Shown here piece by piece: positions 5,051-53,997 of a DNA stretch of 64,000 nucleotides. Within the stretch, counting starts at the first letter, position 1; each line of letters starts with the position of its first letter. Under the pieces are notes generated by a model. The model was not told the origin of the DNA. It saw only the letters and a list, made by a program, of their open reading frames with translations, and searched no databases. This DNA comes from a virus, in IMG/VR virus record IMGVR_UViG_3300018876_000008, positions 105,338 through 169,337 of that record; one strand, given 5' to 3'. The translations under genes were made by a program, and so were the position numbers.

Positions 5051-5351
5051 CTCTCTCATCTATTAATGGGTATTCTTTATTGATGTGTTTTAGTCTGTTC
5101 TCCAACCAACTATTATAGGTTTCATCACTTTCTAAAATACCGTACCTATTTAATGTATCCCTTAAAATTGAAACTTCATTTCTAATATCATCCATTAATT
5201 TCCAAATGTAGGGAGGGGCTTTACTTACATTCTGAATACTTACACTGGTATGGTTTGCGGATTGCAAATATTTTCTTAATTCAGTATACATTTCGACAAT
5301 TTTATTGTCGGCTTTAGTTTTATCTAAAAATTTTTCCATTGAAGTACTCAT
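5043..5351 (-). CDS. Unknown helical protein, 102 aa
   Basis: No family recognised. Charged and mainly helical, no membrane segment. A TATTTATA motif ends 3 nt before its ATG, so a leaderless late-type transcript is likely. Overlaps the downstream gene slightly, suggesting coupled translation. Confidence 0.7.
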   Translation of the reverse strand: MSTSMEKFLDKTKADNKIVEMYTELRKYLQSANHTSVSIQNVSKAPPYIWKLMDDIRNEVSILRDTLNRYGILESDETYNSWLENRLKHINKEYPLIDERDD

Positions 5352-5354
5352 GAC

Positions 5355-5362
5355 TATAAATA
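5355..5362 (-). promoter_or_regulatory. Late-type motif TATTTATA
   Basis: 3 nt before the ATG at 5351, inside the palindrome-like GACTATATTTATAGTC. Confidence 0.5.
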
Positions 5363-5371
5363 TAGTCGAGT

Positions 5372-5626
5372 TTATAAAGTATGAAGTATATTTTTATAAA
5401 CTAATGAAAGATTTTCACCGCCAGTATTATTTTGATAAAATTCTAAATCTCCTGTATGTGTTGTGTCTTGAGACCAGTAAGTTTCTGTCTCATTTTTGAT
5501 AGTTTCGATAGTATAAGTTTCTATATTATCAATTTTAAGTACGTTAAATATTTCAGTTAAATCCTCTTTTGTGAATTTACCGTGTATTTGTATCGTTTTA
5601 GTTTTTAAATCTAATGTGAATTTCAT
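5372..5626 (-). CDS. Unknown protein, 84 aa
   Basis: No family recognised. Beta-rich N-terminus (MKFTLDLKTKTIQIHGKF), then a helix; no signal peptide. Its start overlaps the stop of the upstream gene at 5626, so the minus-strand genes from 6508 down to 5372 form a tightly packed operon. Confidence 0.65.
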   Translation of the reverse strand: MKFTLDLKTKTIQIHGKFTKEDLTEIFNVLKIDNIETYTIETIKNETETYWSQDTTHTGDLEFYQNNTGGENLSLVYKNILHTL

Positions 5627-5883
5627 TATTTTTCTTTAGTTTCTTTAGTTTCTATATTTTTAGTGAAACAATTACCTTCATTGATATTATTCCACAAATA
5701 GTATAGTAAAAAAACAGAAAGTAGTAAAGAAATTGATTCTACAATCCAAAATTCTTTGGAGTAACCACATTCACTTATAATATAACCTTTAAATGTATCA
5801 ACCACTGATAGTAGTGATAACCCAATAAAGATTAATATAACTTTTTGATACTTTAGACAAAATTTTAAATGTTTGTTAAACAT
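5626..5883 (-). CDS. Two-helix membrane protein, 85 aa
   Basis: Start chosen at 5883 (MFNKHLKF) rather than 5898 because a TATATTTG promoter lies 4 nt upstream of it. Two hydrophobic segments (VILIFIGLSLLSVV and ISLLLSVFLLYYLW) flank a short loop. Small inner-membrane protein of unknown function, encoded just after the membrane-anchored GAF-like protein. Confidence 0.65.
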   Translation of the reverse strand: MFNKHLKFCLKYQKVILIFIGLSLLSVVDTFKGYIISECGYSKEFWIVESISLLLSVFLLYYLWNNINEGNCFTKNIETKETKEK

Positions 5884-5884
5884 G

Positions 5885-6508
5885 TTACAAATATACATCT
5901 AATGTGTCAGCATCAGTACTAAATTCGTCTATGAAATCCTGAGTGAATTTACCATCTTTTCTTAGATATTCAACAGGTATGTTACTAAAAACCCAATCTA
6001 AACAAAGTATAGCTACTAAATGCTTGTCTTTATCATATATCGGTACGGCGCAATGTCCTTTAGTTCCACTAGAATAAGCCAATGACCTCAAACCAATATC
6101 ATTCATATCTTCGATATTTGGAAAATACATATTATTTTCCATAACATCTTTTATGTAACTAGTAAAACTAGTGATTAAATGATTTTGATTTTTTTCGGCT
6201 TTTCGTTCTAATCCATCAGAACATCTTTCATAAGTAATTGATAATTTTTGCATAGGTGAAGTAGTATAAAAACTACCACCATTATGAAATTGCCATATAT
6301 ATACTCTATCGGCGTTATATCTTCGCCTAACGTCTCTTATTGCGAGATGTACTATTTCATCTCTTTTGATTTGTTCCATTAGTTTTTCTTTAGACTTATT
6401 TTTTTCTTGTTTTTCTCTCATTTGTCTAAAGAAACCTGCACCAACTAAAGCGACAATAATTGATGTTATAGAGGTTATTAAAACTTCCGTTATTCTTATC
6501 CAGTCCAT
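5885..6508 (-). CDS. Membrane-anchored GAF-like domain protein, 207 aa
   Basis: An N-terminal membrane helix (residues 8-27) is followed by a charged linker and a domain with the motif RVYIWQFHNGG and the strand pair HCAVPIYDKDKHLVAILCLD, which resemble GAF/GAF-like sensor domains found in phage proteins. It probably sits on the inner face of the cytoplasmic membrane. Ligand unknown. First gene of the minus operon running to 5372; a late-type motif lies about 20 nt upstream. Confidence 0.65.
   Translation of the reverse strand: MDWIRITEVLITSITSIIVALVGAGFFRQMREKQEKNKSKEKLMEQIKRDEIVHLAIRDVRRRYNADRVYIWQFHNGGSFYTTSPMQKLSITYERCSDGLERKAEKNQNHLITSFTSYIKDVMENNMYFPNIEDMNDIGLRSLAYSSGTKGHCAVPIYDKDKHLVAILCLDWVFSNIPVEYLRKDGKFTQDFIDEFSTDADTLDVYL
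5888..5895 (-). promoter_or_regulatory. Host-type -7 element TATATTTG
   Basis: 4 nt upstream of the ATG at 5883; would give a leaderless message. Confidence 0.4.
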
Positions 6509-6527
6509 TAAATCGTAATTTATATCT

Positions 6528-6535
6528 TATAAATA
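6528..6535 (-). promoter_or_regulatory. Late-type motif TATTTATA
   Basis: 19 nt upstream of the ATG at 6508. Confidence 0.45.
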
Positions 6536-6541
6536 TGTGGT

Positions 6542-6781
6542 TTAGAGGACTTTTTTTGTTTTTTCAACTCTTTTAGTCCCAAAATTTACTTTGTACCACA
6601 ATCTCTCGTGTATAAAATAAAGAATCATCTTGGTTACAATCTCAAATGAACCGATAGTTAAACCAATTAGTGGGTCACCTGAAACAAACCATCCAATTAA
6701 CATTGTGTCAATAGTACCTACAATTCTCCATGTTATAGTTTTTAGTAGATGTCTTTTTACTGTTACTTTTGTTTTTACCAT
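6542..6781 (-). CDS. DUF2061 family membrane protein, 79 aa
   Basis: Matches the DUF2061 pattern: a basic N-terminus, then KTITWRIVGTIDTMLIGW, a glycine hinge, a second hydrophobic helix and the conserved IHERLWYKV end. Two membrane helices are predicted. Function of the family is unknown; members occur in phages and bacteria. It lies upstream of the GAF-like gene without clear coupling. Confidence 0.8.
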   Translation of the reverse strand: MVKTKVTVKRHLLKTITWRIVGTIDTMLIGWFVSGDPLIGLTIGSFEIVTKMILYFIHERLWYKVNFGTKRVEKTKKVL

Positions 6782-6818
6782 ATAGTATAAGTATCTAAGT
6801 AAAAAATACTAAGTAAAT

Positions 6819-6846
6819 AAATCCCCCACAATTAGGTGAGGGATTT
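6819..6846 (-). terminator. Terminator after clpP
   Basis: AAATCCC-C-CAC / GTG-A-GGGATTT hairpin, followed on the minus strand by a T-rich run; lies directly beyond the clpP stop. Confidence 0.65.
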
Positions 6847-6852
6847 AAAAAA

Positions 6853-7524
6853 TTACTTCTTACTACGAATCACCTCATCGATAATTCCATACTCTAAAGC
6901 CTCTTCCGATGATAACCACAAATCACGGGACGCATCCTGTTTTACTTTTTCGGGGTCTTTATCACAAAATTCACCAAGTAGGTTAAATAATGTGTCATTT
7001 AGTTTAGTCCATTCTTTCATTGTAATTTCAGCATCTTGAATGTTACCTACCGCACCTCCCGATGATTGATGTAACATTGTACGAGAAAATCTAAGTGATG
7101 AACGTTTACCTTTAGTTCCCGCTCCCAATAGAATTGAACCCATAGATGCCGCCATACCTGTATTTACTGTAACAATATCAGATTTAATGTAGTGCATAAC
7201 ATCGACCATTGAAAGTCCTGATTTAACCGAACCACCAGGTGAATCAATATGCATCGTTATATCCATATTATCGACAGAATCTAAATACATAAGTTGTGCT
7301 TGTACCACTGTTGACATTGCGTCATTAACAGGTCCTGCAACCCATAAAAGACGGTCTCTCATTAATCTTGAGAAGATATCTAATTGTACTGCCCTCATCT
7401 CTCTTTCTTCTAAAATGTAAGGGGTCATAGAACCCTCAAGTTCTTTTTTAATGTGATGCATTGTTAATGAAGATAAATTATGTTCACTCATTGCATACTT
7501 TTGAAAATCTTTTCCGTAATCCAT
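6853..7524 (-). CDS. clpP: ATP-dependent Clp protease proteolytic subunit
   Basis: Serine protease of the ClpP fold, full length at 223 aa. The catalytic triad is visible: Ser128 in GMAASMG, His152 in MLHQSSGG and Asp201 in ASRDLWLSS. The oxyanion-side SPGGS motif is at residues 95-99. A 30-residue N-terminal extension precedes the usual start of the fold. It should form a barrel fed by an AAA+ partner; the ClpC at 50230, with a VGF docking loop, is the obvious candidate. A TACCTTTG promoter lies 39 nt upstream and a terminator follows. Confidence 0.93.
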   Translation of the reverse strand: MDYGKDFQKYAMSEHNLSSLTMHHIKKELEGSMTPYILEEREMRAVQLDIFSRLMRDRLLWVAGPVNDAMSTVVQAQLMYLDSVDNMDITMHIDSPGGSVKSGLSMVDVMHYIKSDIVTVNTGMAASMGSILLGAGTKGKRSSLRFSRTMLHQSSGGAVGNIQDAEITMKEWTKLNDTLFNLLGEFCDKDPEKVKQDASRDLWLSSEEALEYGIIDEVIRSKK

Positions 7525-7551
7525 ATTTTTTTAATTTTAGTTCTACCGTTA

Positions 7552-7559
7552 TATTTATA
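7552..7559 (+). promoter_or_regulatory. Late-type motif TATTTATA
   Basis: Upstream of the plus gene at 7598 (38 nt), back to back with the clpP promoter. Confidence 0.4.
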
Positions 7560-7563
7560 GTAA

Positions 7564-7571
7564 CAAAGGTA
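7564..7571 (-). promoter_or_regulatory. Host-type -7 element TACCTTTG
   Basis: 39 nt upstream of clpP on the minus strand. Confidence 0.5.
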
Positions 7572-7597
7572 AGTAAAAAAAACCAAATAGAAAAGAT

Positions 7598-8662
7598 ATG
7601 AGTTTAAATTTGAAAGAAGCTGCTGGAGTACCTAAAGGTATTGTTGATGCGGGTGAAAAACTATATAATGATTTTAAACAAAAGGTAGTTCCTATGTTAA
7701 AGGATGGTCAAACTGAATATGAAGTTAATTTTAAACCATCAGAACCATACAAAATAGGTGATGAAGAAATTAGTGATGTTGAGATTAATTTAACCCTTAG
7801 ACCTGATAGCGATAGTTATGGGGAAGCTAACATGCAAGTATTTAGAAAAAATACTTTGAAAAAAGTTGGTAATGAATATGTTCTAATGAAGGTTAATAAG
7901 AATGGTAAAGTTATATTAACTATTGATAAACCTGTACCTGAAGATTGGAATGTAAAAGATGTGATAAATTCTATTAATAACTCAAAAGTTCAAACAGTTA
8001 GCGCCTTATCACACGAATTAAAACATGAGTATGACGATTTAAAAACACCTCATATGGGAGTTGAAAAAGTTTCAGAATATCAATCAAATACTGAAATGTT
8101 TAACTTTCCAATTGCGCCAATCCAAAGAATGTTTTTTGATTTATATTATTTAGATGAAATAGAAAATTCAGTTAGACCCACGGAACTTTATGCTAAATTA
8201 AAAACTTTAGGTATAGGTAAATCAGGATTTTTAGATTACTTGAAAAAAGAATATTTCATTATTATGGAATCTATGAGATTTAGTGTTAATGAAATGATAA
8301 AGGAAATATATGGTAATATGAATTCAGTTGATGAGTTATTAAGTCAGGTAGATGGTTTAGGGGTACCTGTTTCTGAACTTAGTGACGATGAAAAAGTAAA
8401 TTTAGTTTTGAGGATTGCTTATATATCTGCGTCTAATACTCGAAGACAGAATTATGGAGACTCATTAGTTGACAATGATATTGAAACTGAAATAGGGTTT
8501 TTCGGAGACAAAGCCGTACAATTTGATAAGTATGAAAAAAGTTTTGGTAAGTACGAAGAAGATATTATGAAATTTTATCAAGACATCGAAAAATACTTAA
8601 AAAGAAGTTCCGCAAAAGTTATGAAGAAACTAGGGAAAGTTTATTCTCTACTCCCTGACTAA
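7598..8662 (+). CDS. Zincin-like HExxH protein, 354 aa
   Basis: Carries HELKH at residues 139-143, the zinc-metallopeptidase HExxH signature, preceded by a helix (TVSALS) as expected for a zincin. No signal peptide, so it is not a secreted bacterial protease. The C-terminal half is helical and charged. A late-type motif lies upstream, like the two other HExxH proteins at 24855 and 36976. It overlaps the convergent gene at 8619 by 44 nt. Peptidase activity is inferred from one motif only. Confidence 0.7.
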   Translation: MSLNLKEAAGVPKGIVDAGEKLYNDFKQKVVPMLKDGQTEYEVNFKPSEPYKIGDEEISDVEINLTLRPDSDSYGEANMQVFRKNTLKKVGNEYVLMKVNKNGKVILTIDKPVPEDWNVKDVINSINNSKVQTVSALSHELKHEYDDLKTPHMGVEKVSEYQSNTEMFNFPIAPIQRMFFDLYYLDEIENSVRPTELYAKLKTLGIGKSGFLDYLKKEYFIIMESMRFSVNEMIKEIYGNMNSVDELLSQVDGLGVPVSELSDDEKVNLVLRIAYISASNTRRQNYGDSLVDNDIETEIGFFGDKAVQFDKYEKSFGKYEEDIMKFYQDIEKYLKRSSAKVMKKLGKVYSLLPD

Positions 8663-9125
8663 ACCATTTAGGGGTTTTTCTATTTTTCCATTTAGAAAAA
8701 TAAGCTTTATCTCCGAGATAATAGTTTCTATAAGATTCTACAACAGATTTAACCTTATATTGGTTTGGCATTGCTTTAGGTGGTTCAGTAAAACCTTTAT
8801 CGGAAATGTTAGGTTTATTTACCACACACCATTCAATAACCTCCTGAGATTTGTGCTTACGACCATAACGGTAAGTGTATTCATAACATAACTCTAATCC
8901 TAATTCGCACAACCACAGATAATTGGTGATACTTTCACGTGCCCAAATAGAACATGGATGATTCTTATGTGATAATTTATAAGGTATCTCATTACTGATT
9001 GATTCTGTCATGTGATGTACTCCGCAAAGTAGTTGGGCGGATTCAAGTATCATTTTAACTACATGTTTGTCGTTGTGATATTCGGCACATTTCTTTACGT
9101 CTAAATCTAATACAAATATATTCAT
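8619..9125 (-). CDS. Conserved phage protein with YHxDKHVVKM motif, 168 aa
   Basis: The opening MNIFVLDLD followed by AEYHNDKHVVKMILESAQLL is a pattern I know from many large-phage proteins, sometimes loosely annotated as pyrimidine-dimer glycosylase-like. Several histidines and aspartates (H-N-D-K-H, NHPCSIWAR) could form an active or metal site. I cannot confirm a DNA-repair role. A TATATTTG promoter precedes it, putting it in the early/metabolic class. Confidence 0.75.
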   Translation of the reverse strand: MNIFVLDLDVKKCAEYHNDKHVVKMILESAQLLCGVHHMTESISNEIPYKLSHKNHPCSIWARESITNYLWLCELGLELCYEYTYRYGRKHKSQEVIEWCVVNKPNISDKGFTEPPKAMPNQYKVKSVVESYRNYYLGDKAYFSKWKNRKTPKWFSQGVENKLSLVSS

Positions 9126-10781: not shown

Positions 10782-11168
10782 TTAGTTTATATTCAACTTA
10801 GATTTAAAATATTTAACCATAATATGTCCACTCCTATAATTTGTAGCAAGCGGTACATCATGAACATCACATAATCTCATTAACATTGAAATATCTACAT
10901 CATGTGGGTGTTTATCTAAAGGGTCCCTGAAAAATATAACCCCATCAATCTCACCGCGAGTTACCATAGCACCGATTTCCGCATCACCACCTAATGGTCC
11001 GCTATTTACCGCGTCAACTTTATCTATACCAGCATGTGTTATTTTTTTACCTGTAGTTCCTGTAGTTACTAAAGATACTTTATTATTATTAAAAAATTTT
11101 AAACGTTTCATTACAAACGCAACCATATCGGATTTTTTACCATCGTGGGCAATAAGTGCTAATTTCAT
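10782..11168 (-). CDS. mgsA: Methylglyoxal synthase
   Basis: Closely follows the MgsA pattern over its whole 128 aa: LALIAHDGKK (phosphate-binding start), TTGTTG, SGPLGGDAEIGA with the catalytic aspartate, and IFFRDPLDKHPHDVD with the conserved His and Asp pair. The enzyme turns dihydroxyacetone phosphate into methylglyoxal plus phosphate, a bypass of lower glycolysis in the cytosol. It is slightly shorter than the E. coli enzyme but keeps all key blocks. Host-type promoter 17 nt upstream. A phage copy is unusual. Confidence 0.92.
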   Translation of the reverse strand: MKLALIAHDGKKSDMVAFVMKRLKFFNNNKVSLVTTGTTGKKITHAGIDKVDAVNSGPLGGDAEIGAMVTRGEIDGVIFFRDPLDKHPHDVDISMLMRLCDVHDVPLATNYRSGHIMVKYFKSKLNIN

Positions 11169-11230: not shown

Positions 11231-11494
11231 TTACTTTAACACATCTACTTTAATAATAATTGAATTAGTATCCTTTGGATTTTTTTCAATCCACCATACT
11301 CTATTTTGAATATCTACAAATTCTTCCCCGAACTTAACAGGTAAAACCCACTCTTTAACGGGATACTCACCATTCCATTGGGTGTCAACTATAATTGGTA
11401 CTCCCCACATACTTGGATTTTTAATTATTTTTGCGGGTGTTTGATTATAACATCCCGAAAATAGTATTGAACAAACTATTAATATTTTTTTCAT
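11231..11494 (-). CDS. Small lipoprotein, 87 aa
   Basis: A classical lipoprotein leader: KK, a hydrophobic stretch ILIVCSILF, then the lipobox-like FSGC with Cys15 as the lipidated residue. The mature part is tryptophan-rich and beta-like (WGVPIIVDTQWNGEYPVKEW). Probably anchored in the cell envelope of the infected host. No family recognised. Downstream of the two T9SS-type genes. Confidence 0.72.
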   Translation of the reverse strand: MKKILIVCSILFSGCYNQTPAKIIKNPSMWGVPIIVDTQWNGEYPVKEWVLPVKFGEEFVDIQNRVWWIEKNPKDTNSIIIKVDVLK

Positions 11495-11519: not shown

Positions 11520-12410
11520 TTATCTAAATAATGTCACATGTCCGTGAGTTTTTATCCCATAACCAGGACGAGTAGCCTCTAATTTCCAAGTATAAACACC
11601 ATCGGGACAATAATAATCTCCACTATATGGTAAAAACCAACTCAATTCGGGAAGAGGTGCCCCCGTCCAATTAGCTAAAGGATAGTCAGTTCTCCATACT
11701 AAATTGCCCCATCTATCGTAAATTTTCATATCCCACGTTAACCAACAATCAGCTTCAGTTACTACCCTAAATGATTCGTTTTTACCATCTCCGTTTGGTG
11801 TAAATGCGTTAGGAATATATAAGTCATCATCAACACATGGAACAACTGGTCCGTCATTGGATGAATTACAATCAGGGTTTGTTAGTGAGAAGGTAACTAT
11901 GTTATTTAAGGGTTCCACATCAGGATAGTCAAAGTTTCCTAAACCACTATCACTTTCGTATGGCCAAGTATTACTATCGTTTATTTGAGTTATGGAAAGA
12001 ATCCAACATTGTTCATCAAAGAATCCATCATTTATTGCCTCCTCCCAACAAAAGCTGGCGTCTGAACCGGTAACAAATGCGTCTACAATGTTAAAAGTAA
12101 CTTCATCACCTGTTTGTAACCAAGGACCTGGTGAATTAATATTGACTAAAGGAAAACTTACAGGGTAGATTAAAAGTGCCCAACCATTATCATAAAAACA
12201 CGGATATGGGTAGGTATCTAATTGTGGTTCTGTAGTTATACCTAATAAAAATTCACCGATTGAATCAGAAGGTGAACCACAATTTACTCCTGAATTCACG
12301 TATAAAGTAATATCCATGGTTTGAGGGTCAAATGACACAATTTCCATATCACATTGACCTTTCACTATGAATGAAATAAATAATAAAATTAATGTAAGTG
12401 GGTTTTTCAT
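11520..12410 (-). CDS. Secreted protein with gliding-motility/T9SS C-terminal domain, 296 aa
   Basis: Signal peptide at residues 1-18 (hydrophobic LTLILLFISFIVKG, cleavage near GQC). The last ~95 residues match the gliding-motility-associated C-terminal domain (PF13585 type): IPNAFTPNGDGKNE, then IYDRWGNLVW, PDGVYTWKL and the ending GHVTLFR. In Bacteroidota this domain directs type IX secretion and surface attachment. The middle part is beta-rich and unknown. The ATG overlaps the stop of the gene at 12407 by 4 nt, so the two are translationally coupled. Confidence 0.87.
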   Translation of the reverse strand: MKNPLTLILLFISFIVKGQCDMEIVSFDPQTMDITLYVNSGVNCGSPSDSIGEFLLGITTEPQLDTYPYPCFYDNGWALLIYPVSFPLVNINSPGPWLQTGDEVTFNIVDAFVTGSDASFCWEEAINDGFFDEQCWILSITQINDSNTWPYESDSGLGNFDYPDVEPLNNIVTFSLTNPDCNSSNDGPVVPCVDDDLYIPNAFTPNGDGKNESFRVVTEADCWLTWDMKIYDRWGNLVWRTDYPLANWTGAPLPELSWFLPYSGDYYCPDGVYTWKLEATRPGYGIKTHGHVTLFR

Positions 12411-14266
12411 CTGAATATAGTTATATGTCCCCTTTCTTCAATTATCAATGCACTATTTACTTTCTTACCTGTAACTACATAAACGTATAGCCCGTCAGAA
12501 ACGTAATGATTTCCTCCATTCACACTTCCATCCCAATAAGGATAGTCGTCAAAATTATCACCAGTATTGTAATACACTTCATTTCCCCATCGGTTAAAAA
12601 TTCTAAATTCAACGTTTTCCCAACAGTTTAAATCATAGATTAGTTTCCACACATCGTTAATTCCATCATTATTTGGTGTAAAAGTATTAGGAATATGGAT
12701 AGTTGTCCAATCAGGACATATTAAACCTGGTGGGTCTTCATCACAAGGTAATCCCGTTTCACAGTCAATCCAAATTTCTTGTACAACATACTCGGTAACT
12801 GTGTCAGTTAGGTATATGTAATTATCAATAAAGACTGTATCTGTAAGATACTCTGTTATGTAAAGGGTGTCAGTTATGAATTCTGTTTCAGTTAAATAAA
12901 TCGTATCTGTAACTACTTCTGTAATATACAGTGTGTCTATAATGTATTCTGTTTCTGTAATATAGAGTGTATCTGTGACGTATTCTGTGATATATTCATA
13001 AACAGTATCTGTTACATACTCTGTTACATACTCAGTTATATATTCATAAACTGTATCCGTTAAGTAAATATAATTATCCACATACTCAATTAAAGTATCA
13101 GGTGGTGACTCAACATAAAGAGTGTCTATAATAGTATCAGTTATAAAGATAGAATCGATTTCATAGATATAAGTTACCGTTTCAATTTCAATAGTATCTG
13201 GCTCACAAACCTCAGGACAGATTAAATCTTCTAATTCATCAGGATAGTAAACGGTAGTGTTATTGTTACCCGTTACAATCTCATCATTAACATTATCAAC
13301 AGTCATTGTAAAGAAACTACCTAATGCGTCATATTCAAAGAAAGGTGAGGTGAATTGTTGACCCTCACCTACAGGAATATCATACCCACCAAACATAGAA
13401 TCATCAAAGCATTGATAGTAATCTTCATTCCATATCTCAATACAGTAATTTGTGATAGGTTCATTACCGTAATTGTAAACGGTATAAGTTATTTGATATG
13501 AGGGAATATCACCAATACACCCTATTTCAAATTCTATATTATCAATAACAGCATCAGGGGCATCGGGAGGACAATCAAAATCGGGAGAGGCTACTGCCGC
13601 ACCGGGATTCTCATCTCTACATAGGTACCAAGAATTATTACAATTTTGGTCTTGATATGTATTTGGTGCGAAATCGGGATTAGTTGACGAACTTGCCCAA
13701 CCTCCGTTTCCAACATACCAAGAAGAACCATAATTTACCTGCCACACAACAAATTCAATACACTCATCTTCAGATAACCAATAATCTATTAAGTCATCAC
13801 CACACTCGGCAAGTGGATATGGATATGTATCATAATCTCCAGGTGGGTTTAAAGGGATATTTACAACATCTCCTGTTACTAAACCGTCTCCCATTATCTC
13901 TTCCTGAAAAGTAACAGACGCTGAAGGACTGTACCACCAACCCGGATGATTATTATCGGGATTCTGACCCAAGTAGTATCCATTAGCATCCCATCCTGGA
14001 CTACATGGTGGTAATCCAAATGTTTCATTAAAATCTTCAATGACTTCATTATCGGGATTTATAGGTTCAGGAAGATGATAACCTATCTGTAATTGTGTAA
14101 CTTTACCGTTTACACCACCAGGACCGTTTGATAAACATCCTAGTGAATTAATTACCTCAATGGTGACTTCGTATGTGTTAAGGTCAACAGCGGTAATTGC
14201 GACATCACATTGTCCTTGTATAAAAAAGGCATGTAGATATGCTATAAGAAATAATAGTCTTTTCAT
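12407..14266 (-). CDS. Large surface protein with repeat stalk and T9SS-type C-terminus, 619 aa
   Basis: Signal peptide 1-19. Residues ~240-350 look like a CARDB-type beta domain (ITYTVYNYGNEPITNYCIEI). Residues ~355-500 are a low-complexity run built from repeats such as DTLYITE and YVTDTVYEYITE, probably an extended stalk. The last ~95 residues are the gliding-motility C-terminal domain (IPNTFTPNNDGIND, IFNRWGNEVYY, SDGLYVYVV, GHITIFR). Predicted to leave the cell by the host type IX system. Role in the phage is unknown: surface masking, cell adhesion or superinfection exclusion are inferences. A TATTTATA motif lies ~100 nt upstream. Confidence 0.87.
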   Translation of the reverse strand: MKRLLFLIAYLHAFFIQGQCDVAITAVDLNTYEVTIEVINSLGCLSNGPGGVNGKVTQLQIGYHLPEPINPDNEVIEDFNETFGLPPCSPGWDANGYYLGQNPDNNHPGWWYSPSASVTFQEEIMGDGLVTGDVVNIPLNPPGDYDTYPYPLAECGDDLIDYWLSEDECIEFVVWQVNYGSSWYVGNGGWASSSTNPDFAPNTYQDQNCNNSWYLCRDENPGAAVASPDFDCPPDAPDAVIDNIEFEIGCIGDIPSYQITYTVYNYGNEPITNYCIEIWNEDYYQCFDDSMFGGYDIPVGEGQQFTSPFFEYDALGSFFTMTVDNVNDEIVTGNNNTTVYYPDELEDLICPEVCEPDTIEIETVTYIYEIDSIFITDTIIDTLYVESPPDTLIEYVDNYIYLTDTVYEYITEYVTEYVTDTVYEYITEYVTDTLYITETEYIIDTLYITEVVTDTIYLTETEFITDTLYITEYLTDTVFIDNYIYLTDTVTEYVVQEIWIDCETGLPCDEDPPGLICPDWTTIHIPNTFTPNNDGINDVWKLIYDLNCWENVEFRIFNRWGNEVYYNTGDNFDDYPYWDGSVNGGNHYVSDGLYVYVVTGKKVNSALIIEERGHITIFR

Positions 14267-22309: not shown

Positions 22310-22891
22310 TTATTCTATTATTTTAAAATGTCCCCAGTCTTGTCCCGAAACATTTGTATTAGGAAAGTAGAACATTATTTCATTATTGTCAAATTTTATT
22401 TTCTTTTTAAACCCTGAGGGTATAGTTGCCCCTCCTATAACTTTCTGTAAGTCACCATCAAAACAAACTGTAATCTCTACAATGACATCTTCAAAAACTT
22501 TAGCGAGACCCACTTCAAAACGTTCTAATTCTTTCCACGGACCCCTATTAAGTCCTTCGTGTTGTAAAACACAATTTAAATAGGTAAATGTCTTTTTCAA
22601 TGTTTCCCTATCACAATTAAATGCGGAAGCAGGGGCTAAATGACCTTTATCCCATACATTATCAACGTAGTCATAATTGTCCGATGTTTGTATACTATCT
22701 ACCACACGGAAATCTAAACCGTCTCTTGATTCTTCCCCTAAAGGGCACTTAACTTCATATTTAATCCATAATGGTTGTTCTAATTCTTCGGAATAAATAA
22801 CCTCAAAAATATCAGTTTTAATTGTTTTTGTTTGAGCTAAAGTGGTATGTGTAAAAAACACACACACCACTATTTGTAATAATTTTATCAT
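22310..22891 (-). CDS. Secreted DNA/RNA non-specific endonuclease, 193 aa
   Basis: Signal peptide (residues 1-19, LLQIVVCVFFTHTTLAQ). The nuclease motif DKGHLAPASAF corresponds to the DRGH active site of the NucA/EndA family, with His as general base; the downstream NCVLQHEGLNRGPWKELE provides the metal-binding Asn. It would act outside the cytoplasm. A phage might use it to clear extracellular DNA or block rival phage DNA (inference). Its start overlaps the upstream stop by 4 nt. Confidence 0.85.
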   Translation of the reverse strand: MIKLLQIVVCVFFTHTTLAQTKTIKTDIFEVIYSEELEQPLWIKYEVKCPLGEESRDGLDFRVVDSIQTSDNYDYVDNVWDKGHLAPASAFNCDRETLKKTFTYLNCVLQHEGLNRGPWKELERFEVGLAKVFEDVIVEITVCFDGDLQKVIGGATIPSGFKKKIKFDNNEIMFYFPNTNVSGQDWGHFKIIE

Positions 22892-45337: not shown

Positions 45338-46579
45338 ATGGGTAAAAATATTATTAAATTAACTGGAGAAGATATTGAAAATATTGTAAGAACTGTTATT
45401 GAAGAACAGAAAAGAGGAGATTTAGGTCGAGGTAAAAAGAAAAAAAGAAAAAAGGACAAAACTGACCGTAACTCATCGGATTGGAATGGTGGTGATTCAG
45501 GTACACTTAATTTCGATGTAATGGAACAAGAAATGACTCCATTAGCCATAAACGTCACTGAGTATGATTTTGACGTTAGACTTTCCGTTAATTTAACACG
45601 AACAGGTAGGTCTGTCACACCAACAGAAACCCCTCCGACTCCACCTCCACCTGTAACAATACCACAATATACTATACAGGGAAGTGGATTACCTTACGCA
45701 GATAATATGGTTATGCCTTACTTTGATAAGTATCCTGAGTCTAATGAGCAGTTTACAAATATAGTTAAAAGTTTCGTCGCATATATTAAAGCGGGTGGTG
45801 GAGACCAACTTGATAATATCACAATTAAAGGTAGTGCGGATTCAGGAAGACCAACACTAAAAGTGCCAAGTGGTTATTCTAAATTAGACCATCCCGATAC
45901 TGAACCTTATGGAGGAAAAACAGACCCAAAAGAGATGAATCAATATTTGGCTGACATGAGAGCCAAGCAATACGCAAGAGCATTAATAAGTGAAGTTAAA
46001 AAACAAACAGGACTTGTACTAAACATAAATGTACTAAAAGGTGATAACTTCTATGGTCAAGGTGACACTAAAAGAGGTCAAGAATTTAGAAAGATAACTT
46101 TATCGCCAAACGCACCTACATTCCAACCTGAAGTTGAAGGTGGTGAGGGAACTGCCGGTACTAAGACACCAGGAAAATTAGTTAAAGGTGGTGGTATACC
46201 TTATGACGTAGCGGTTTATTGGGACGGAAAAGGTAGATATGTTGAAGGATTTAGAGTTTTAGATTTTTATAATAATAAAAGATTATCCGTTAGTAAGGAG
46301 GTTGCAGAAAAATTAGACCTACCTACAAAATATTTAAAAGGTAAAATAAATTCTGAAATAAAAGGTCAAGATTTTTATGTGAATGGTAAATTAATTGGTC
46401 CAATAAGACCAATAGGTGAGAGTCCTGTAAAATTTACTACAATGAATTATAATGTTATAGGTAGACCGAGATATTTCGCTGGACCAATAACCACTATAGA
46501 TGCTTATAGAACACATAAAATTGGTAATGAAGAGCTAACCGTAGCGTATTTATCTGAAAATTACTTCACTTTTACTTAA
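45338..46579 (+). CDS. Tagged protein with OmpA-like segment, 413 aa
   Basis: The N-terminus MGKNIIKLTGEDIENIVRTV continues IEEQ: an (I)xE-Q site after E23, like the other tagged proteins. A basic linker (GRGKKKKRKKDK) and a Pro/Thr-rich hinge follow. Residues ~150-225 (ITIKGSADSGRP, YLADMRAKQYARALISEV) resemble an OmpA-like peptidoglycan-binding fold. No signal peptide. A virion protein touching the cell wall is a plausible inference. Late-type motif upstream. Confidence 0.7.
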   Translation: MGKNIIKLTGEDIENIVRTVIEEQKRGDLGRGKKKKRKKDKTDRNSSDWNGGDSGTLNFDVMEQEMTPLAINVTEYDFDVRLSVNLTRTGRSVTPTETPPTPPPPVTIPQYTIQGSGLPYADNMVMPYFDKYPESNEQFTNIVKSFVAYIKAGGGDQLDNITIKGSADSGRPTLKVPSGYSKLDHPDTEPYGGKTDPKEMNQYLADMRAKQYARALISEVKKQTGLVLNINVLKGDNFYGQGDTKRGQEFRKITLSPNAPTFQPEVEGGEGTAGTKTPGKLVKGGGIPYDVAVYWDGKGRYVEGFRVLDFYNNKRLSVSKEVAEKLDLPTKYLKGKINSEIKGQDFYVNGKLIGPIRPIGESPVKFTTMNYNVIGRPRYFAGPITTIDAYRTHKIGNEELTVAYLSENYFTFT

Positions 46580-47100
46580 TAGTCGTATTTTAAAATAGGG
46601 AACATCTGAACTGCCATTATGTAGTTTAATTTTTTATTATATGTCACATAATGTCCATAGTATGATGGAAAAGTAATTGTTCCATCTGAAACTTCGTTTA
46701 GTAAATTCATTCGATGATATTTAGAATTCATAAAATTATTATGAATTTCTTTTGCAATTTCTAAATCTGATTTACTACTGTCATAAAAAAATGCTGTTAT
46801 ATTCTCAGATGATACATCATATTTTAAATTACTACCTACTCTAATTCTATCAGTTGCATTTCTATACTTTAACTTAGGGTTTGTGTGTTTTACTTCTGAA
46901 ATATTAGTGATTAAACTTAAATAGTCAGCTTGTATTTTTGAACTTTTATTAATTAATGGGTCCGTCACAAAAGTACTCAGACCTCTACTACTTCTTTCTT
47001 CATTTACTAAATTTAACAAATGTCTTTGTATTTCACCTAAGTTTTGTGAGTAACCTACGCTACAAATAAGAGTTAGTAATATTAATAGTATATTTTTCAT
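46576..47100 (-). CDS. Secreted CAP-domain protein, 174 aa
   Basis: Signal peptide 1-18 (ILLILLTLICSVGYSQ). The mature part fits the bacterial CAP/SCP superfamily: LLNLVNEERSSRGL, the conserved SEN and FMNSKYHRMNLLN with His. Function of bacterial CAP proteins is poorly known. A TATATTTG element sits 4 nt before the ATG, so a leaderless transcript is possible. The stop overlaps the convergent gene by 4 nt. Confidence 0.82.
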   Translation of the reverse strand: MKNILLILLTLICSVGYSQNLGEIQRHLLNLVNEERSSRGLSTFVTDPLINKSSKIQADYLSLITNISEVKHTNPKLKYRNATDRIRVGSNLKYDVSSENITAFFYDSSKSDLEIAKEIHNNFMNSKYHRMNLLNEVSDGTITFPSYYGHYVTYNKKLNYIMAVQMFPILKYDY

Positions 47101-47165: not shown

Positions 47166-49070
47166 ATGAAATTTAGTACAATATTAAACGAAGGTAAAAA
47201 GGAAAATCTTATTTCTAAGTATGGTGATGAGCCAATATTCAAAGATAATGATTTTATTTCAACTATAGTTGATAGTGACCCATCTAGTACTAAGAAGTAT
47301 TCTGAATGGACCATTAAACAAGTAATTGATTTCATGAAAGTTAATGATGGGGCATCACTTCCAGATGTCGTTATCCAAATTACCGATTTAATTAAGAATT
47401 TTCACGACTTATCACTAACGATTACTGATGAGGATATTGATTTTGCCAAAAAATTACACTCAAGTATTAATGACACATATATAAAGGGAGCGCCTAAAGA
47501 TATACACAGATATAAATCATATTGGGAACTACAAACAGTCTTATCTGCACTTGAAAAAAAGAAAAAAGATAGAGAACAAGAAAAAGAAGCTTTAAAAGAT
47601 GTGGATAAACTTTATGAGGACAGTAGATTTTTAGTGGTGAGACCTTATAGTCATGATGCTTCGTGTTATTACGGTTCAAATACTAAATGGTGTACCGCAT
47701 CTAAAAATAATCGAGGATATTTTAATCGTTATGTAGATTCGGGAATATTAATTTATGTAATTGATAAAAAGTCCAATGATGAAACTTTAGGTAAAATGGC
47801 CATCAATATTAATGAAAATGGTAATATTTGGATTTACGACCAAAAAGATAATCAAAGGAGTGAAGACTTTTTACTTGATAGATTTGAACCTATTTCTGAG
47901 GTGATTAAAAAAATACTCAAAGGTGACACCGATTATGAGAAATTAATTAGAATAAAAGAAGGTAAAATAAGGGCTTCACAACAAAAACTTACTGCCCCGT
48001 ATTTTGAAGATATGAATGAAAATGATATTTTTTTACGTTTTGATGATGTGAGAGAATATCTTTCATTAATGAATGAGGCTTTAGAAGATTATGAAATAGA
48101 TGCTTATGCGAACGGTATTGAGTTACCTTATGGTATGGACAATTATTACTACGATTCATACAATTTTGATGAGGATTTGAAAGAAGGATACCCTCTTTAT
48201 AAATTAAATTCAGACCAGTTAAAAATTCTTAAAGATATATTAACTATTATTTCCCCTGACAAACTAAAAGGATTATTTAAAACTACCCCTAATGTATCTA
48301 GAGAGAAATTAAATAAATTTAAATCTATGGATAAGGGGTCACAAGATTATTTTGATTTATACAACTTATCAATTGTTGACAATAATAATTTACTCCCTGA
48401 TATTGGTAAGTTTTTATTAGGATTTGACGATAAATTTATAGAAGATTTTGGATATGCCTATGGGACTGCCGAAGATGAGTCAATGAAAAAAGGTGTTCAA
48501 GACGTATTAGAGGATGAATTGTGTAACTTCTATGAACCAATAGGGTTTGAATTAGTAGGTTCCGATTGTTTTTATAAGTATTCAGTATCAGTAGATAAGG
48601 TTATCAGTATGTATGAATCAAATATAGAATACTCAAAAAATTTATCTTTAAAAGAATTATTTGAATGGTTTGCCGAAGAAAACTTAGCATGGAGTCTTGA
48701 TGAACCTCATAATATGGCCTATGAGAATGCAGACGAAGAAACGTTTAATTACTATTTTAATTCAGATATGGAAAGTGCTTTGGAATCGTTACTTGAAAAA
48801 ATAGAAAGTGACGAAACATATGAAGATATTGAAGAATATAATAAAATAGTAAAATTAATTAGTAATAAGTACGGGTTTGATAAAAAAGTTGATATTCCAA
48901 CTACAGACGGTACTCAAATTACAATACAAAAAGTAAATCCACTAAATAATAAAGTTGAGTTTATGTTAAATAAAAAAGGTGATTGGAGAGGTAAAAAGGG
49001 TATAGCTAAACTATCCACAATCGAAAAAATGTTTACAAACTACCAACTATTTGACCCGTTCGAAGATTAA
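47166..49070 (+). CDS. Tagged large protein with TKWCTAS domain, 634 aa
   Basis: The N-terminal tag is short: MKFSTILNEGKK, predicted cleavage after E9. Residues ~155-235 form a compact domain with SCYYGSNTKWCTASKNN, FNRYVDSGILIYVID and GKMAININENGNIWIYD, a pattern I have seen in phage proteins of unknown function; Cys, Trp and Thr could be catalytic. The rest is acidic and helical. If packaged, it would be an effector delivered early (inference). Late-type motif upstream. Confidence 0.72.
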   Translation: MKFSTILNEGKKENLISKYGDEPIFKDNDFISTIVDSDPSSTKKYSEWTIKQVIDFMKVNDGASLPDVVIQITDLIKNFHDLSLTITDEDIDFAKKLHSSINDTYIKGAPKDIHRYKSYWELQTVLSALEKKKKDREQEKEALKDVDKLYEDSRFLVVRPYSHDASCYYGSNTKWCTASKNNRGYFNRYVDSGILIYVIDKKSNDETLGKMAININENGNIWIYDQKDNQRSEDFLLDRFEPISEVIKKILKGDTDYEKLIRIKEGKIRASQQKLTAPYFEDMNENDIFLRFDDVREYLSLMNEALEDYEIDAYANGIELPYGMDNYYYDSYNFDEDLKEGYPLYKLNSDQLKILKDILTIISPDKLKGLFKTTPNVSREKLNKFKSMDKGSQDYFDLYNLSIVDNNNLLPDIGKFLLGFDDKFIEDFGYAYGTAEDESMKKGVQDVLEDELCNFYEPIGFELVGSDCFYKYSVSVDKVISMYESNIEYSKNLSLKELFEWFAEENLAWSLDEPHNMAYENADEETFNYYFNSDMESALESLLEKIESDETYEDIEEYNKIVKLISNKYGFDKKVDIPTTDGTQITIQKVNPLNNKVEFMLNKKGDWRGKKGIAKLSTIEKMFTNYQLFDPFED

Positions 49071-50167
49071 TAAAAATAATCGTTTGATTCAGTCATACCT
49101 GAAAGTAATTTCTCTCTCAGTATTTCATACAACTCCCCAATCTCACTTTCATCCATGTAAACTACATCACCTGTAAATTTAGATTCAATGGAGATACCTT
49201 CTTTAGTATCAGTAACAATTACATTTTCCAATTCGTAACTTTCCTCATCGTAATCAATATCATCTACATCAGATTCCCAACCATCTAAAGTGTCATCAGT
49301 AACATCGAATAATGTACCATAATTGTTCCAATTAGGTTTTACATAATCATATACGTACTTTTGATTACCTAACTCATCTACCAATTTAATAGAAAACTCA
49401 ATAGCCTTAGATACGTCATCCACAACTACAAATTCATTAGCGGTATGCATGTTATAATATCCACATGAAAAATTAATACAACTAAAATCACCCTTACGTT
49501 TAATTTGAGAAACGTCAGTGTAAGGATGAGACTGAGGGTCGGCATTTACACCCATAATTTCATTAAATAGTGGAAGTGTTTTATTAATGAACTCACCACC
49601 TTTTTCATATAGTCTTGTCCCTGAACAAACTTCAGTAATTAAATTATTGCCAGGAGCATCGAATTGTACTGCATAACCCACATCGTTCAAGAAGTTGATG
49701 TCACATTTACTTGAACCATGACACCCTGTTTCTTCAGATACAAATAACCCTACTTTTACTTTAGAAAGGGTCCTGAGAAGTTCAAGTGCAATAAAGACAC
49801 CACACTTATCATCACCACCAATACCAGTTGGAATACCATCAGGTGTATAACCTTTAAGGGATAGAAATTCTTCATCTCCATAGGTATGACCAAAAGTATT
49901 TGGTTTAACAAGTGATTCTTCTTGAACGATTATTTTATCGACCAGTTGATGTACTGTGTCGGTATGGGCAATAAACATTGGATAATACTCTCCTTCGTCT
50001 AATGTACCTTTAGTGGCGTAAACATTATCCATTTCATCCGTATAATACTCAACATCGGGCATTGCCTCCAATACGTCGCGTAGGTATTGTACCATATTAT
50101 CTTCTTGATATGTTTTGGTTGGTACCGACAGTACTTCTTTTAGTCTATTGAGTTGTGTATTATCCAT
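49067..50167 (-). CDS. M20-family zinc peptidase-like protein, 366 aa
   Basis: Metal-binding blocks of the M20/peptidase T group: HTDTV (68-72), GGDDK (117-121), EETGCHGSS (145-153), DAPG and MHTANEFV. About residue 290 on, an acidic extension (DDTLDGWESDVDDIDYDEESYE) not usual in the family. Predicted cytosolic aminopeptidase or amide hydrolase. It shares a 4-nt convergent overlap with the 47166 gene. Host-type promoter 19 nt upstream; downstream of clpC but separately promoted. Confidence 0.85.
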   Translation of the reverse strand: MDNTQLNRLKEVLSVPTKTYQEDNMVQYLRDVLEAMPDVEYYTDEMDNVYATKGTLDEGEYYPMFIAHTDTVHQLVDKIIVQEESLVKPNTFGHTYGDEEFLSLKGYTPDGIPTGIGGDDKCGVFIALELLRTLSKVKVGLFVSEETGCHGSSKCDINFLNDVGYAVQFDAPGNNLITEVCSGTRLYEKGGEFINKTLPLFNEIMGVNADPQSHPYTDVSQIKRKGDFSCINFSCGYYNMHTANEFVVVDDVSKAIEFSIKLVDELGNQKYVYDYVKPNWNNYGTLFDVTDDTLDGWESDVDDIDYDEESYELENVIVTDTKEGISIESKFTGDVVYMDESEIGELYEILREKLLSGMTESNDYFY

Positions 50168-50186
50168 TTGTTTATTATTTAGAATA

Positions 50187-50194
50187 CAAATATA
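50187..50194 (-). promoter_or_regulatory. Host-type -7 element TATATTTG
   Basis: 19 nt upstream of the peptidase ATG at 50167. Confidence 0.6.
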
Positions 50195-50215
50195 CTACTT
50201 TTTTTTAGAATAAAG

Positions 50216-50243
50216 AAAAAAAGGGAAAATTAATTTCCCTTTT
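50216..50243 (-). terminator. Terminator of clpC
   Basis: AAAAAGGGAAA / TTTCCCTTTTT hairpin overlapping the clpC stop codon. Confidence 0.7.
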
Positions 50244-52251
50244 TAATGATTAATTCTTCATCGTTTTTCATTTCTACAGTAAAAGGTTTGTTTACTACAA
50301 TAGTACCTCTAAGAACTTCTTCAGAAATTAAATCTTCAATTTTTTCCTGTATTGCTCTTTTAATAGGTCTCGCCCCGTACTTTTCATCAAATCCAACTTT
50401 AGAAATAAATTCTTTAACTGAATCACTAAAATTAATATTATATTCCATTTCTTCTAAACGATTAGTTAATTTAAGTAATTCAATATCCACAATCTCAGAA
50501 ACTTCTTTTTCTTTTAGAGGGTTAAATACAACAACCTCATCTACACGATTTAAGAATTCAGGGGTAAAATGATTCTTTAATTCTTTTTGAAGTAACGCCT
50601 TTTTCATCTCTTCATTATTTGACATTCTATTAGAAGTCTCAAAACCAACACCTGTACCAAAATCTTGAAGTTTCTTAACCCCTAAATTAGATGTCATAAT
50701 AATCAAACAGTTCTTAAAATTAATTTTACGACCAAAACTATCGGTTAAGTGTCCATCATCCATCATTTGAAGTAATAATGAAAAAATATCTTTGTTAGCC
50801 TTCTCAATTTCATCGAACAAAACAACAGAATAAGGTTTGTTCTTAACCGCTTCAGTTAATTGACCTCCTTGGTCGTGACCAACATATCCTGGAGGAGAAC
50901 CAATTAATCTTGACATAGTGTACTTCTCTTGATATTCTGACATATCTACTCTAATTAAAGCGTCTTCAGCCCCAAATATCTCTTTTGCCAATTGTTTAGC
51001 TAAATGGGTTTTACCGATACCTGTAGAACCTAAGAATATAAAAGAACCGATAGGTCGATTAGGGTCTTTAATCCCAACTCTATTTCTACGAATAGCTTTA
51101 GAGATTTTTTCTACTGCAACTTTTTGACCGATTACAGAGCTATTAAGATTACCTTCTAAATTAAGTAGGGATTCTTTATCGTCAGAATTAAGTCTTGTAA
51201 CAGGTATTTTAGTCATAGTTGAAACAACCTCAAATACCATATCTTCAGTAATTGGTTTACGTTTTTGGTCTTTAGATAACTCAAACTTTTCTTTTTCATT
51301 ATCTAATTTTTTTAAGATTTTCTTCTCTTTATCACGTAATTCTGCTGCCTTTTCGTACTGCTGAGATTTTACTACTTCAATTTTTTCTTCTTTAATTTTA
51401 ACCGCATCTTCCTTTAACTTTTCAATTATTTCAGGAAGTTTGACGTTGATTTGAGCGCGGGCACCAACCTCATCCATAATATCGATAGCCTTATCAGGAA
51501 ATTCACGGTCAGTAATATATCTATCAGCAAGTGTTACACATGCTTTAAGTGAATTTTCACTATAAGTTACTTTATGATGTGATTCATAACGAGACTTTAA
51601 ATTTTCAAGAATGATTAAGGTTTCTGATGGAGTGGCACCATCAACAACAACTTTTTGGAACCTACGTTCAAGTGCACCATCTTTTTCTATGTTTTCACGG
51701 TATTCGTCAAGTGTTGTAGCTCCAATACATTGTAGTTCACCTCTTGCTAGTGCGGGTTTAAAAATATTAGAAGCGTCTAATGAACCTGAAGAATTACCTG
51801 CACCTATAATTGTGTGTATCTCATCAATAAAGACGATAATATCAGGATTCTCATAAAGTTCATCTAAAATAACTTTTAATCTTTCCTCAAATTGACCTCT
51901 ATATTTTGTACCTGCAACGATTGATGTCATATCCAAAGAGACGATACGTTTATCACATAAATTTTGGGGACAATCACCTTCGAAGATTTTCATTGCCAAT
52001 CCCTCTACAATTGCAGTTTTACCTGCACCTGGCTCACCTATAATAATTGGGTTATTCTTCTTTCTACGAGAAAGAATTTGAGCGATTCTATTAATTTCAT
52101 TTTCACGACCAACAACAGGGTCAAGTTTACCTTGTTCCGCATGTCTAATAAGGTCACGAGAAAAATTGTCTAAAACAGGTGTTTTAGAGTTACTCATTTC
52201 TTTAGGAGCTCTTCCTCCATCTTTTTCATTAGGGTCTAATGGTTCTATCAT
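50230..52251 (-). CDS. clpC: ClpC-type AAA+ unfoldase lacking the N-domain, 673 aa
   Basis: Two AAA+ modules: Walker A GEPGAGKT (72-79) and Walker B IIVFIDE (138-144); Walker A GSTGIGKT (408-415) and Walker B VVLFDE (476-481). Between them a ClpC-type middle domain with a UVR motif (QQYEKAAELRDKEKK, ~298-311). The VGF loop in FGTGVGFETS (~535-537) is the ClpC dock for ClpP, so it should feed the phage ClpP at 6853. The usual ~150-residue Clp N-domain is replaced by a ~25-residue acidic start. Two host-type promoters upstream. Confidence 0.93.
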   Translation of the reverse strand: MIEPLDPNEKDGGRAPKEMSNSKTPVLDNFSRDLIRHAEQGKLDPVVGRENEINRIAQILSRRKKNNPIIIGEPGAGKTAIVEGLAMKIFEGDCPQNLCDKRIVSLDMTSIVAGTKYRGQFEERLKVILDELYENPDIIVFIDEIHTIIGAGNSSGSLDASNIFKPALARGELQCIGATTLDEYRENIEKDGALERRFQKVVVDGATPSETLIILENLKSRYESHHKVTYSENSLKACVTLADRYITDREFPDKAIDIMDEVGARAQINVKLPEIIEKLKEDAVKIKEEKIEVVKSQQYEKAAELRDKEKKILKKLDNEKEKFELSKDQKRKPITEDMVFEVVSTMTKIPVTRLNSDDKESLLNLEGNLNSSVIGQKVAVEKISKAIRRNRVGIKDPNRPIGSFIFLGSTGIGKTHLAKQLAKEIFGAEDALIRVDMSEYQEKYTMSRLIGSPPGYVGHDQGGQLTEAVKNKPYSVVLFDEIEKANKDIFSLLLQMMDDGHLTDSFGRKINFKNCLIIMTSNLGVKKLQDFGTGVGFETSNRMSNNEEMKKALLQKELKNHFTPEFLNRVDEVVVFNPLKEKEVSEIVDIELLKLTNRLEEMEYNINFSDSVKEFISKVGFDEKYGARPIKRAIQEKIEDLISEEVLRGTIVVNKPFTVEMKNDEELIIKKGN

Positions 52252-52275
52252 ATTCTTTTAATTAATTTATAGTTA

Positions 52276-52283
52276 CAAAGATA
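52276..52283 (-). promoter_or_regulatory. Host-type -7 element TATCTTTG (clpC P1)
   Basis: 24 nt upstream of the clpC ATG. Confidence 0.6.
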
Positions 52284-52318
52284 ACAAAAATTATGTAGTT
52301 ATCAACTACTTGACATTT

Positions 52319-52359
52319 TGTCATACTAATTTTATTTTAAGTGTCATAATGTCATACTA
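52319..52359. repeat. TGTCATACTA direct repeats
   Basis: TGTCATACTA occurs at 52319-52328 and 52350-52359, with a further TGTCATAA at 52342. The 31-nt spacing is three helix turns. They lie between the two clpC promoters and could be an operator. Confidence 0.45.
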
Positions 52360-52425
52360 TAGGTTTTATAACCGTAATAAAGACAGTATTTAATTGATGG
52401 CACATTTTTCGTCAATGGTTAAGTA

Positions 52426-52433
52426 CAAAGATA
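52426..52433 (-). promoter_or_regulatory. Host-type -7 element TATCTTTG (clpC P2)
   Basis: Second candidate promoter, 174 nt upstream of the clpC ATG, beyond the TGTCATACTA repeats. Confidence 0.4.
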
Positions 52434-52460
52434 AACAATAAATTTTAAAAAAGTAATAAT

Positions 52461-52832
52461 ATGTTTGGAAAAAGAAAATTTAACAACTTGTTCGGTGAAT
52501 TTGATTCTATGTTTAATGAATTCGATTCTTTATTTAATAATATGAAACCAACCTATTATAGAGTAGGTCCTAATGGTTACGTTTTATATTATGGTTCTGA
52601 AACCGATAAAAATACCACTGATGAAATAACAACACTTAAAGATGAGTTAGAGATTTGTGTTGAAAATCAAGACTTTGAAAAAGCTGTTGAACTTAGGGAT
52701 AAAATTAAATCCTTAGAGGAGAACGGTGAAAAAATAAATAAACTTAGAAAGGATTTAAAAAAATCTATCGATGAACAGAATTTTGAAGAATCTATTAAAT
52801 TAAGAGATAAACTAAATAAGTTGACAAAGTAA
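52461..52832 (+). CDS. Double UVR-motif protein, probable ClpC adaptor, 123 aa
   Basis: Two UVR motifs: ENQDFEKAVELRDKIKSLEE (68-87) and DEQNFEESIKLRDKLNKL (104-121). UVR motifs occur in UvrB/UvrC, in the ClpC middle domain and in the ClpC activator McsA. The N-terminal 60 residues (FGEFDSMFNEFDSLFNN, then YRVGPNGYVLYYG) are not zinc fingers. Divergent neighbour of clpC, whose own UVR motif survives while its N-domain is gone, so an adaptor or regulator of ClpC is the best reading (inference). Confidence 0.75.
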   Translation: MFGKRKFNNLFGEFDSMFNEFDSLFNNMKPTYYRVGPNGYVLYYGSETDKNTTDEITTLKDELEICVENQDFEKAVELRDKIKSLEENGEKINKLRKDLKKSIDEQNFEESIKLRDKLNKLTK

Positions 52833-52836
52833 TTTT

Positions 52837-52863
52837 AAACCCTCCCATACGGAGGGTTTTTTA
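52837..52863 (+). terminator. Terminator
   Basis: AAACCCTCC-catac-GGAGGGTTTTTT after the UVR gene. Confidence 0.75.
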
Positions 52864-52869
52864 TTTATT
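52862..52869 (+). promoter_or_regulatory. Late-type motif TATTTATT
   Basis: 31 nt upstream of the ATG at 52901, overlapping the preceding terminator T run. Confidence 0.35.
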
Positions 52870-52900
52870 AAACTTTTATATACTTATAAAAAAATGTATT

Positions 52901-53149
52901 ATGGGAATTAAAAGTGAAAAAATAAAAGGTAAACTCATTATAAATGAGATTGAGTCATCTAACTTAAAAAAGACAGTATATGATACTGGTAATGAAAAGT
53001 TAGTAGTAACATTTAACAACGGTATGGAGTATGAATATGAAAAAGTTCCACACTCAATGTACACTAAATTTAGAATGGCGGAATCGCAAGGTAGTTTCTT
53101 TAATAAAGAGATAGGGAGGAAATACAAATACAAAAAAATCACAAAGTAA
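52901..53149 (+). CDS. KTSC-domain protein, 82 aa
   Basis: Residues ~14-78 match the KTSC pattern: IESSNLKKTVYDTGNEKL, VTFNNGMEYEYEKVP, FRMAESQGSFFNKEI. KTSC domains are small, frequent in phages and beside RNA-related enzymes; function unsettled. Complete as a stand-alone domain. Next gene starts 23 nt later. Confidence 0.85.
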   Translation: MGIKSEKIKGKLIINEIESSNLKKTVYDTGNEKLVVTFNNGMEYEYEKVPHSMYTKFRMAESQGSFFNKEIGRKYKYKKITK

Positions 53150-53159
53150 AAAACTTAAC

Positions 53160-53167
53160 TATTTATT
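53160..53167 (+). promoter_or_regulatory. Late-type motif TATTTATT
   Basis: 4 nt before the ATG at 53172. Confidence 0.5.
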
Positions 53168-53171
53168 ATTG

Positions 53172-53924: not shown

Positions 53925-53976
53925 ACTATAATTATATCGTAAGATAAGAAAAAGTGGAAATTCTTAACTTATCGTA

Positions 53977-53984: not shown

Positions 53985-53997
53985 ATAAAAAACTATT

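Follow-up and report, generated by a model that had tools for sequence, protein, structure and literature searches.

Type B cargo proteins of the type IX secretion system (T9SS), such as SprB, Fjoh_3952 and PG1035, are the closest described counterparts of the products of two adjoining genes, here called A and B, which we analyzed in a 64,000-nucleotide stretch of viral DNA (the window; bases 105338-169337 of IMG/VR virus record IMGVR_UViG_3300018876_000008, a record of 169,337 bases labeled G000 below). Like these cargos, which are recognized by TIGR04131/PF13585, A and B have a predicted Sec signal peptide that follows the Q-rule, the motifs of a C-terminal sorting domain (CTD), a large predicted extracellular region and an adhesin-like make-up. 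Unlike the bacterial cargos, however, they are encoded by a phage, have no adjoining SprF/PorP gene and carry, outside the CTD, domains that were not found in the bacteria sampled.

Phage-encoded T9SS cargo is already known. Cryophage, which like the phage studied here is a Bacteroidetes phage with T9SS-labeled proteins, encodes cargo with type A domains, and a change of the host surface or superinfection exclusion was suggested as its role (Bellas et al. 2020, PMC7468147). In Cryophage, however, the domains are attached to enzymes (endoglucanase, GH39, PA14) and vary among strains, whereas A and B carry type B domains and belong to a family conserved across phages. A T9SS sorting domain was also noted in open reading frames (ORFs) of crAss-BACON phages (PMC6949934); these ORFs resemble A and B in joining the sorting domain to adhesion-like domains, and differ in having BACON domains and in coming from gut phages, the type of their sorting domain not being given in the text consulted. 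Q-rule proteins were noted earlier in Porphyromonas phages (PMC10367356). The open-access literature searched, subscription papers and preprints being outside its scope, contained no description of a type B family that is conserved in and specific to phages, has a protease and a lipoprotein as partners and lacks a shuttle.

Sorting domains and export signals of A and B

The window comes from a 169-kb phage and contains genes for a portal protein (PHROG 213, E 1e-65) and a large terminase (E 2e-37), together with 8 tRNA genes. B (12407..14266, minus strand; 619 residues) and A (11520..12410, minus strand; 296 residues) coincide exactly with the coupled pair proposed in an earlier reading of this DNA (the original prediction), the start of A overlapping the stop of B by 4 bases (ATGA). 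All parts of both genes lie on the minus strand. B is composed of a signal peptide (14213..14266), a family-specific, beta-rich N-terminal domain (residues 19-232; 13571..14212), a CARDB-like domain that is very conserved in the alignment of relatives (residues 235-352; 13211..13564), a repetitive D-T-rich spacer or stalk of variable length (residues 354-515; 12722..13207) and a type B T9SS CTD (residues 523-619; 12410..12700). A has a signal peptide (12357..12410), a beta-rich N-domain and a type B T9SS CTD (residues 196-296; 11523..11825).

The CTD assignment was based on CHU_C (PF13585, 'Type IX secretion signal domain'), which matched residues 198-280 of A (E 1.8e-12, 47.6 bits with a cut-off of 27) and residues 523-602 of B (E 2.5e-16, 60 bits) and no other protein of the 169,337-base record. 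B also scored 44.4 with NCBIfam TIGR04131, the type B sorting domain, which is above the cut-off of 35, and both proteins carry the CTD motifs FTPNGDGKN/FTPNNDGIN, RWGN and GHVTLFR/GHITIFR. By our own regular expressions, used in place of the published motif letters, 54 of the 68 distinct phage CTDs retain all five motif positions, and each single position is present in at least 58. The type A T9SS domain (PF18962) was looked for in the phage record and none was detected.

Cleavage is predicted before Q19 in both proteins (VKG/QCDME in A, IQG/QCDVA in B), and the sequence GQCDMEI is invariant in 18 relatives of A. The Q-rule marks substrates of signal peptidase I (SPase I) in Bacteroidetes (PMC5837995). 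By a script rule, a Sec signal peptide followed by Q was present in 64 of the 68 distinct CTD proteins, compared with 7% of 1518 other ORFs from the same loci; an earlier, stricter rule had undercounted them (51/69). Among those that lack it, one has a mis-called start, another is frameshifted and a third has H in place of the Q, and in some family members that start with GTG the signal peptide is visible only if this start codon is allowed.

Structural models were consistent with these assignments. The modeled CTD of A has the immunoglobulin (Ig)-like fold expected of T9SS cargo: it matched the CTD of NucA in the T9SS translocon (8glk_D; Z 8.1, root-mean-square deviation 2.2, 73 of 75 residues) and those of PorZ (Z 7.7), PorU (7.0) and RgpB (6.2), none of which is type B, and some unrelated Ig-like domains scored equally high. 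No type B CTD structure has been solved to date (PMC12618676). The modeled middle domain of B has the beta-sandwich fold of CARDB, a domain of adhesion type, and matched 2l0d (Z 10.5 over 107 residues), 3idu (9.6) and 2kl6 (9.3), values that exceed those of unrelated structures (Z ~9) by a small margin only; the Pfam CARDB profile gave no match to B. The spacer of B, ~160 residues long, has no predicted structure (predicted local distance difference test, pLDDT, <50). For the N-domain of A, of which the model is of low confidence, the fold search gave weak Fn3/Ig-like matches only, and the A profile had no significant match among the sequences of solved structures.

B is under purifying selection, the ratio of nonsynonymous to synonymous substitution rates (dN/dS) against its nearest relatives being ~0.08-0.10, with dS near saturation, in the N-terminal part and, where measurable, in the CTD. 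Since the E-values, this selection and the likeness of the CTD fold to solved T9SS CTDs agree, a chance match can be excluded. The Sec signal peptides and the gliding-type C-terminal domain of the original prediction were thus borne out, the latter by CHU_C in both proteins and by TIGR04131 in B, and its claim of T9SS-dependent surface export is well supported by the conserved signal peptide with Q, the CTD motifs and the CTD fold. Judging from sequence, we consider it highly probable that A and B are directed by the T9SS to the surface of the host cell. Receptor masking, a change of adhesion and exclusion of competitors, the roles that the original prediction put forward, are candidate functions there. 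It missed how widely the family is spread, that the sampled bacteria lack it, the protease and lipoprotein partners and the orphan status with regard to a shuttle.

Distribution and origin of the family

Profile-based scans of viral contigs detected relatives of B in at least 136 viral stretches, the best 80 of which were kept, and relatives of A in 20. The number of domains varies among the B relatives, which have the N-domain together with CARDB or one of these alone; nearly all end in the CTD. The non-CTD regions of the family had no match in 395 Bacteroidota genomes, whereas the same profiles found 14/14 and 6/6 control viral records. When 84,980 species genomes were scanned with two peptide patterns, which is not exhaustive, one match (L042) was obtained, and this to the spacer only. 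The protein in question (L042 6207-6730), from an uncultured Bacteroidetes, combines the same D-T-rich spacer and IDCDTGLPC with a different end and is the sole bacterial trace of the family. A bacterial source of the non-CTD parts was rejected because of these two results. Searches of annotated phages for A, B and the M43 protease partner described below gave only weak matches, to the CTD or the catalytic domain, in three unannotated uncultured records. The family is widespread in uncultivated viruses and apparently specific to viruses.

In a CTD tree, the phage domains clustered apart from 9 bacterial CTDs with support of 90/88 in a small sample. The tree does not establish a single origin of the phage CTDs, because the alignment had few columns and the phage rows had been fetched by similarity.

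Missing shuttle and possible roles at the cell surface

The SprF/PorP shuttle (PF11751) was detected in none of 23 phage records in one scan and none of 7 in another, G000 being included, and four Bacteroidota genomes had 3-19 copies. A cognate SprF/PorP-like gene usually, but not obligatorily, adjoins a type B cargo gene, and none adjoins A or B. In F. johnsoniae, 3 of 12 type B cargos are orphans that have no adjoining shuttle gene. Given the phage records without a shuttle gene and the copies in the four bacterial genomes, A and B must be orphans dependent on shuttles of the host. Type B cargos require a specific SprF/PorP-like shuttle, which is stoichiometric, is usually encoded next door and remains bound to them at the surface, and some orphan cargos share a host shuttle (PMC12618676, PMC9143113).

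In the reading we prefer, A and B would be made with Sec signal peptides that are cut by host SPase I, and their type B CTDs would address them to the host T9SS, two steps that the sequences support. We infer that both proteins then cross the outer membrane through SprA with the help of a host SprF/PorP-like shuttle, and that this shuttle keeps them attached to the cell surface. There, the flexible stalk of B might hold out the N-domain and the CARDB adhesion domain. Since each type B shuttle is specific and works in stoichiometric amounts, cargo from the phage could coat the cell and also occupy the shuttles needed by host adhesins such as SprB-type proteins, so that receptor adhesins are perhaps displaced from the infected cell. 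Remodeled in this manner, which we consider the likeliest use, the surface would no longer be a good receptor for progeny of the phage itself or for other phages; the secreted M43 protease that relatives encode at the same position could trim surface proteins. We favor surface remodeling and receptor displacement because of the CARDB domain, the protease partner in relatives and the missing SprF shuttle, and we give about an even chance to the whole chain, from host-exported A and B through a remodeled surface and reduced receptor display to the exclusion of other phages or progeny. A more far-reaching version is rather doubtful: the orphan type B family would saturate stoichiometric SprF-type shuttles, strip the cell of gliding and adhesion proteins that serve as phage receptors and coat it, helped interchangeably by an M43 protease or a lipoprotein, and Bacteroidota phages would thus have a system that excludes superinfecting phages by means of secretion.

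If the remodeling chain is correct, many uncultivated Bacteroidota phages would rebuild the surface of the infected cell via the host type IX machine, and the idea of phage T9SS cargo, proposed from one phage, would become testable across a widespread family. It would also provide natural orphan substrates for studying shuttle choice by type B cargos and suggest why T9SS surface proteins matter for phage infection in Bacteroidota.

Several points weigh against this chain. A scored 33.1 with TIGR04131, just below the cut-off of 35. Broken gene copies occur in loci L054 and L117, and the function is therefore dispensable in some lineages. Several relatives adjoin tail, baseplate or lysis genes, with which a role at lysis or release would fit too. 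Genomic position differs among members: the gene is beside baseplate genes in L019, between tail-region genes and an amidase in L028, near the terminase in L014, near the portal gene in L088 and in a non-structural region in this window. Finally, the step that concerns superinfection and receptors is drawn from knowledge of T9SS adhesins.

The main rival explanation is that A and B are T9SS-exported adhesins or enzymes that aid spread, by making infected cells aggregate or attach to particles, or by helping progeny to escape from a matrix, without excluding phages. The CARDB domain of B, the M43 protease and amidase neighbors in L028-L030 and the nuclease and CAP proteins that this phage is also predicted to export are consistent with this, as is the predominance of adhesins, known or predicted, among type B cargos (PMC12618676). 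Lysis genes are, however, close by in some lineages only, and in this phage the pair sits in a non-structural region; we regard such a role as a real possibility, though not a probable one. It is unlikely that the pair represents recently captured host genes (morons) of ordinary benefit to the host, for instance an extra adhesin or a nutrient-gathering surface protein. Such a role was proposed for the type A cargo enzymes of Cryophage (PMC7468147), and both the CTD and the Q-rule signal peptides resemble those of Bacteroidota, but the results for the non-CTD domains in the 395 Bacteroidota and 84,980 species genomes and the clustering of the phage CTDs, small as that sample was, argue against it. 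The alternative offered by the original prediction, virion fibers with a borrowed domain, would make A and B fibers or tail decorations of the virion in which the CTD serves for structure or receptor binding. Homologs do adjoin head, tail or baseplate genes (L019, L088 and L028), but we regard this reading as very improbable: a signal peptide conserved to this extent would remove the protein from the cytoplasm, the site of assembly of tailed phages; the large fiber-like ORFs of this phage are found at record 47905-60780, ~57 kb from the pair; and no PHROG structural family matches A or B.

Partner genes and other secreted proteins

A gene for a secreted M43 metallopeptidase was found directly upstream of the A-family gene in 19 of the 20 loci, usually with a 4-base overlap. 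The partner was assigned by Pfam M43, and its likeness to mirolysin and ulilysin extends over the catalytic domain, for which the L028 protein gave E 1e-25 with ulilysin and E 3e-23 with mirolysin in a search of PDB sequences. No M43 homolog was detected in the record of this phage, where the slot of the protease holds A. L068-L070 encode the protease as a fusion with a B-type N-domain and CTD; in L009 it comes after B, and in L010 B is followed by a CAP-like protein that is secreted, as judged by its sequence. The secreted phage proteases of the ulilysin/mirolysin type include L028 6091-7995, L065 5968-7965 and L069 2070-4979, and many have dockerin-like EF-hand repeats and a C-terminus that resembles a type A T9SS signal (KKVFVQ).

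A gene for a small lipoprotein of 87 residues (11231..11494, minus strand; lipobox LFSGC) comes after B and A; it lies directly 3' of A and is likely the third gene of the operon. Homologs directly 3' of the CTD gene were found in L086 (E 2e-10), L069 (3e-6) and L070 (2e-4), and weaker look-alikes in L052, L085, L092 and L068. Further secreted phage proteins of ~347 and ~690 residues adjoin the cassette in two terminase-linked phages (L014 10359-13471 and L108 9550-12653, both minus strand); the larger one has a weak type A T9SS domain at its end. A methylglyoxal synthase gene (window 10782-11168, minus strand; NCBIfam NF003559, E 1.3e-43) has relatives in other contigs that contain a B-type gene (L051, L069 and L070).

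Other proteins with Q-rule signal peptides were also present. A DNA/RNA non-specific endonuclease (window 22310-22891, minus strand; PF01223, E 2.9e-22), with a relative in L009 (58%), is predicted to be exported and could destroy incoming or extracellular DNA. Two small secreted proteins with a CAP domain (PF00188) were detected at window 46576-47100 and L008 883-1383 (both minus strand), and L010 has two similar ones. Together, A, B, the nuclease and the CAP proteins seem to form a secretome of several proteins in this phage.

Two upstream motifs recur in the whole record: TATATTTGTA, which is host-like and precedes 14 genes, and ATATTTAT, which has no clear -35 element, occurs at ~50 sites and is probably phage-specific. 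They are perhaps early and late promoter classes. Upstream of B, only ATATTTAT was found, at -107; timing of B expression from promoters was rejected, as this distance is too large and the motif too common. In L009, a contig classed as viral, a 904-residue protein (5147-7861, plus strand) resembles SusC/TonB-dependent receptors and is either a phage-borne receptor or a sign of a misclassified contig. Window 8619-9125 (minus strand) had a match to pyrimidine dimer DNA glycosylase (PF03013, E 5e-5).
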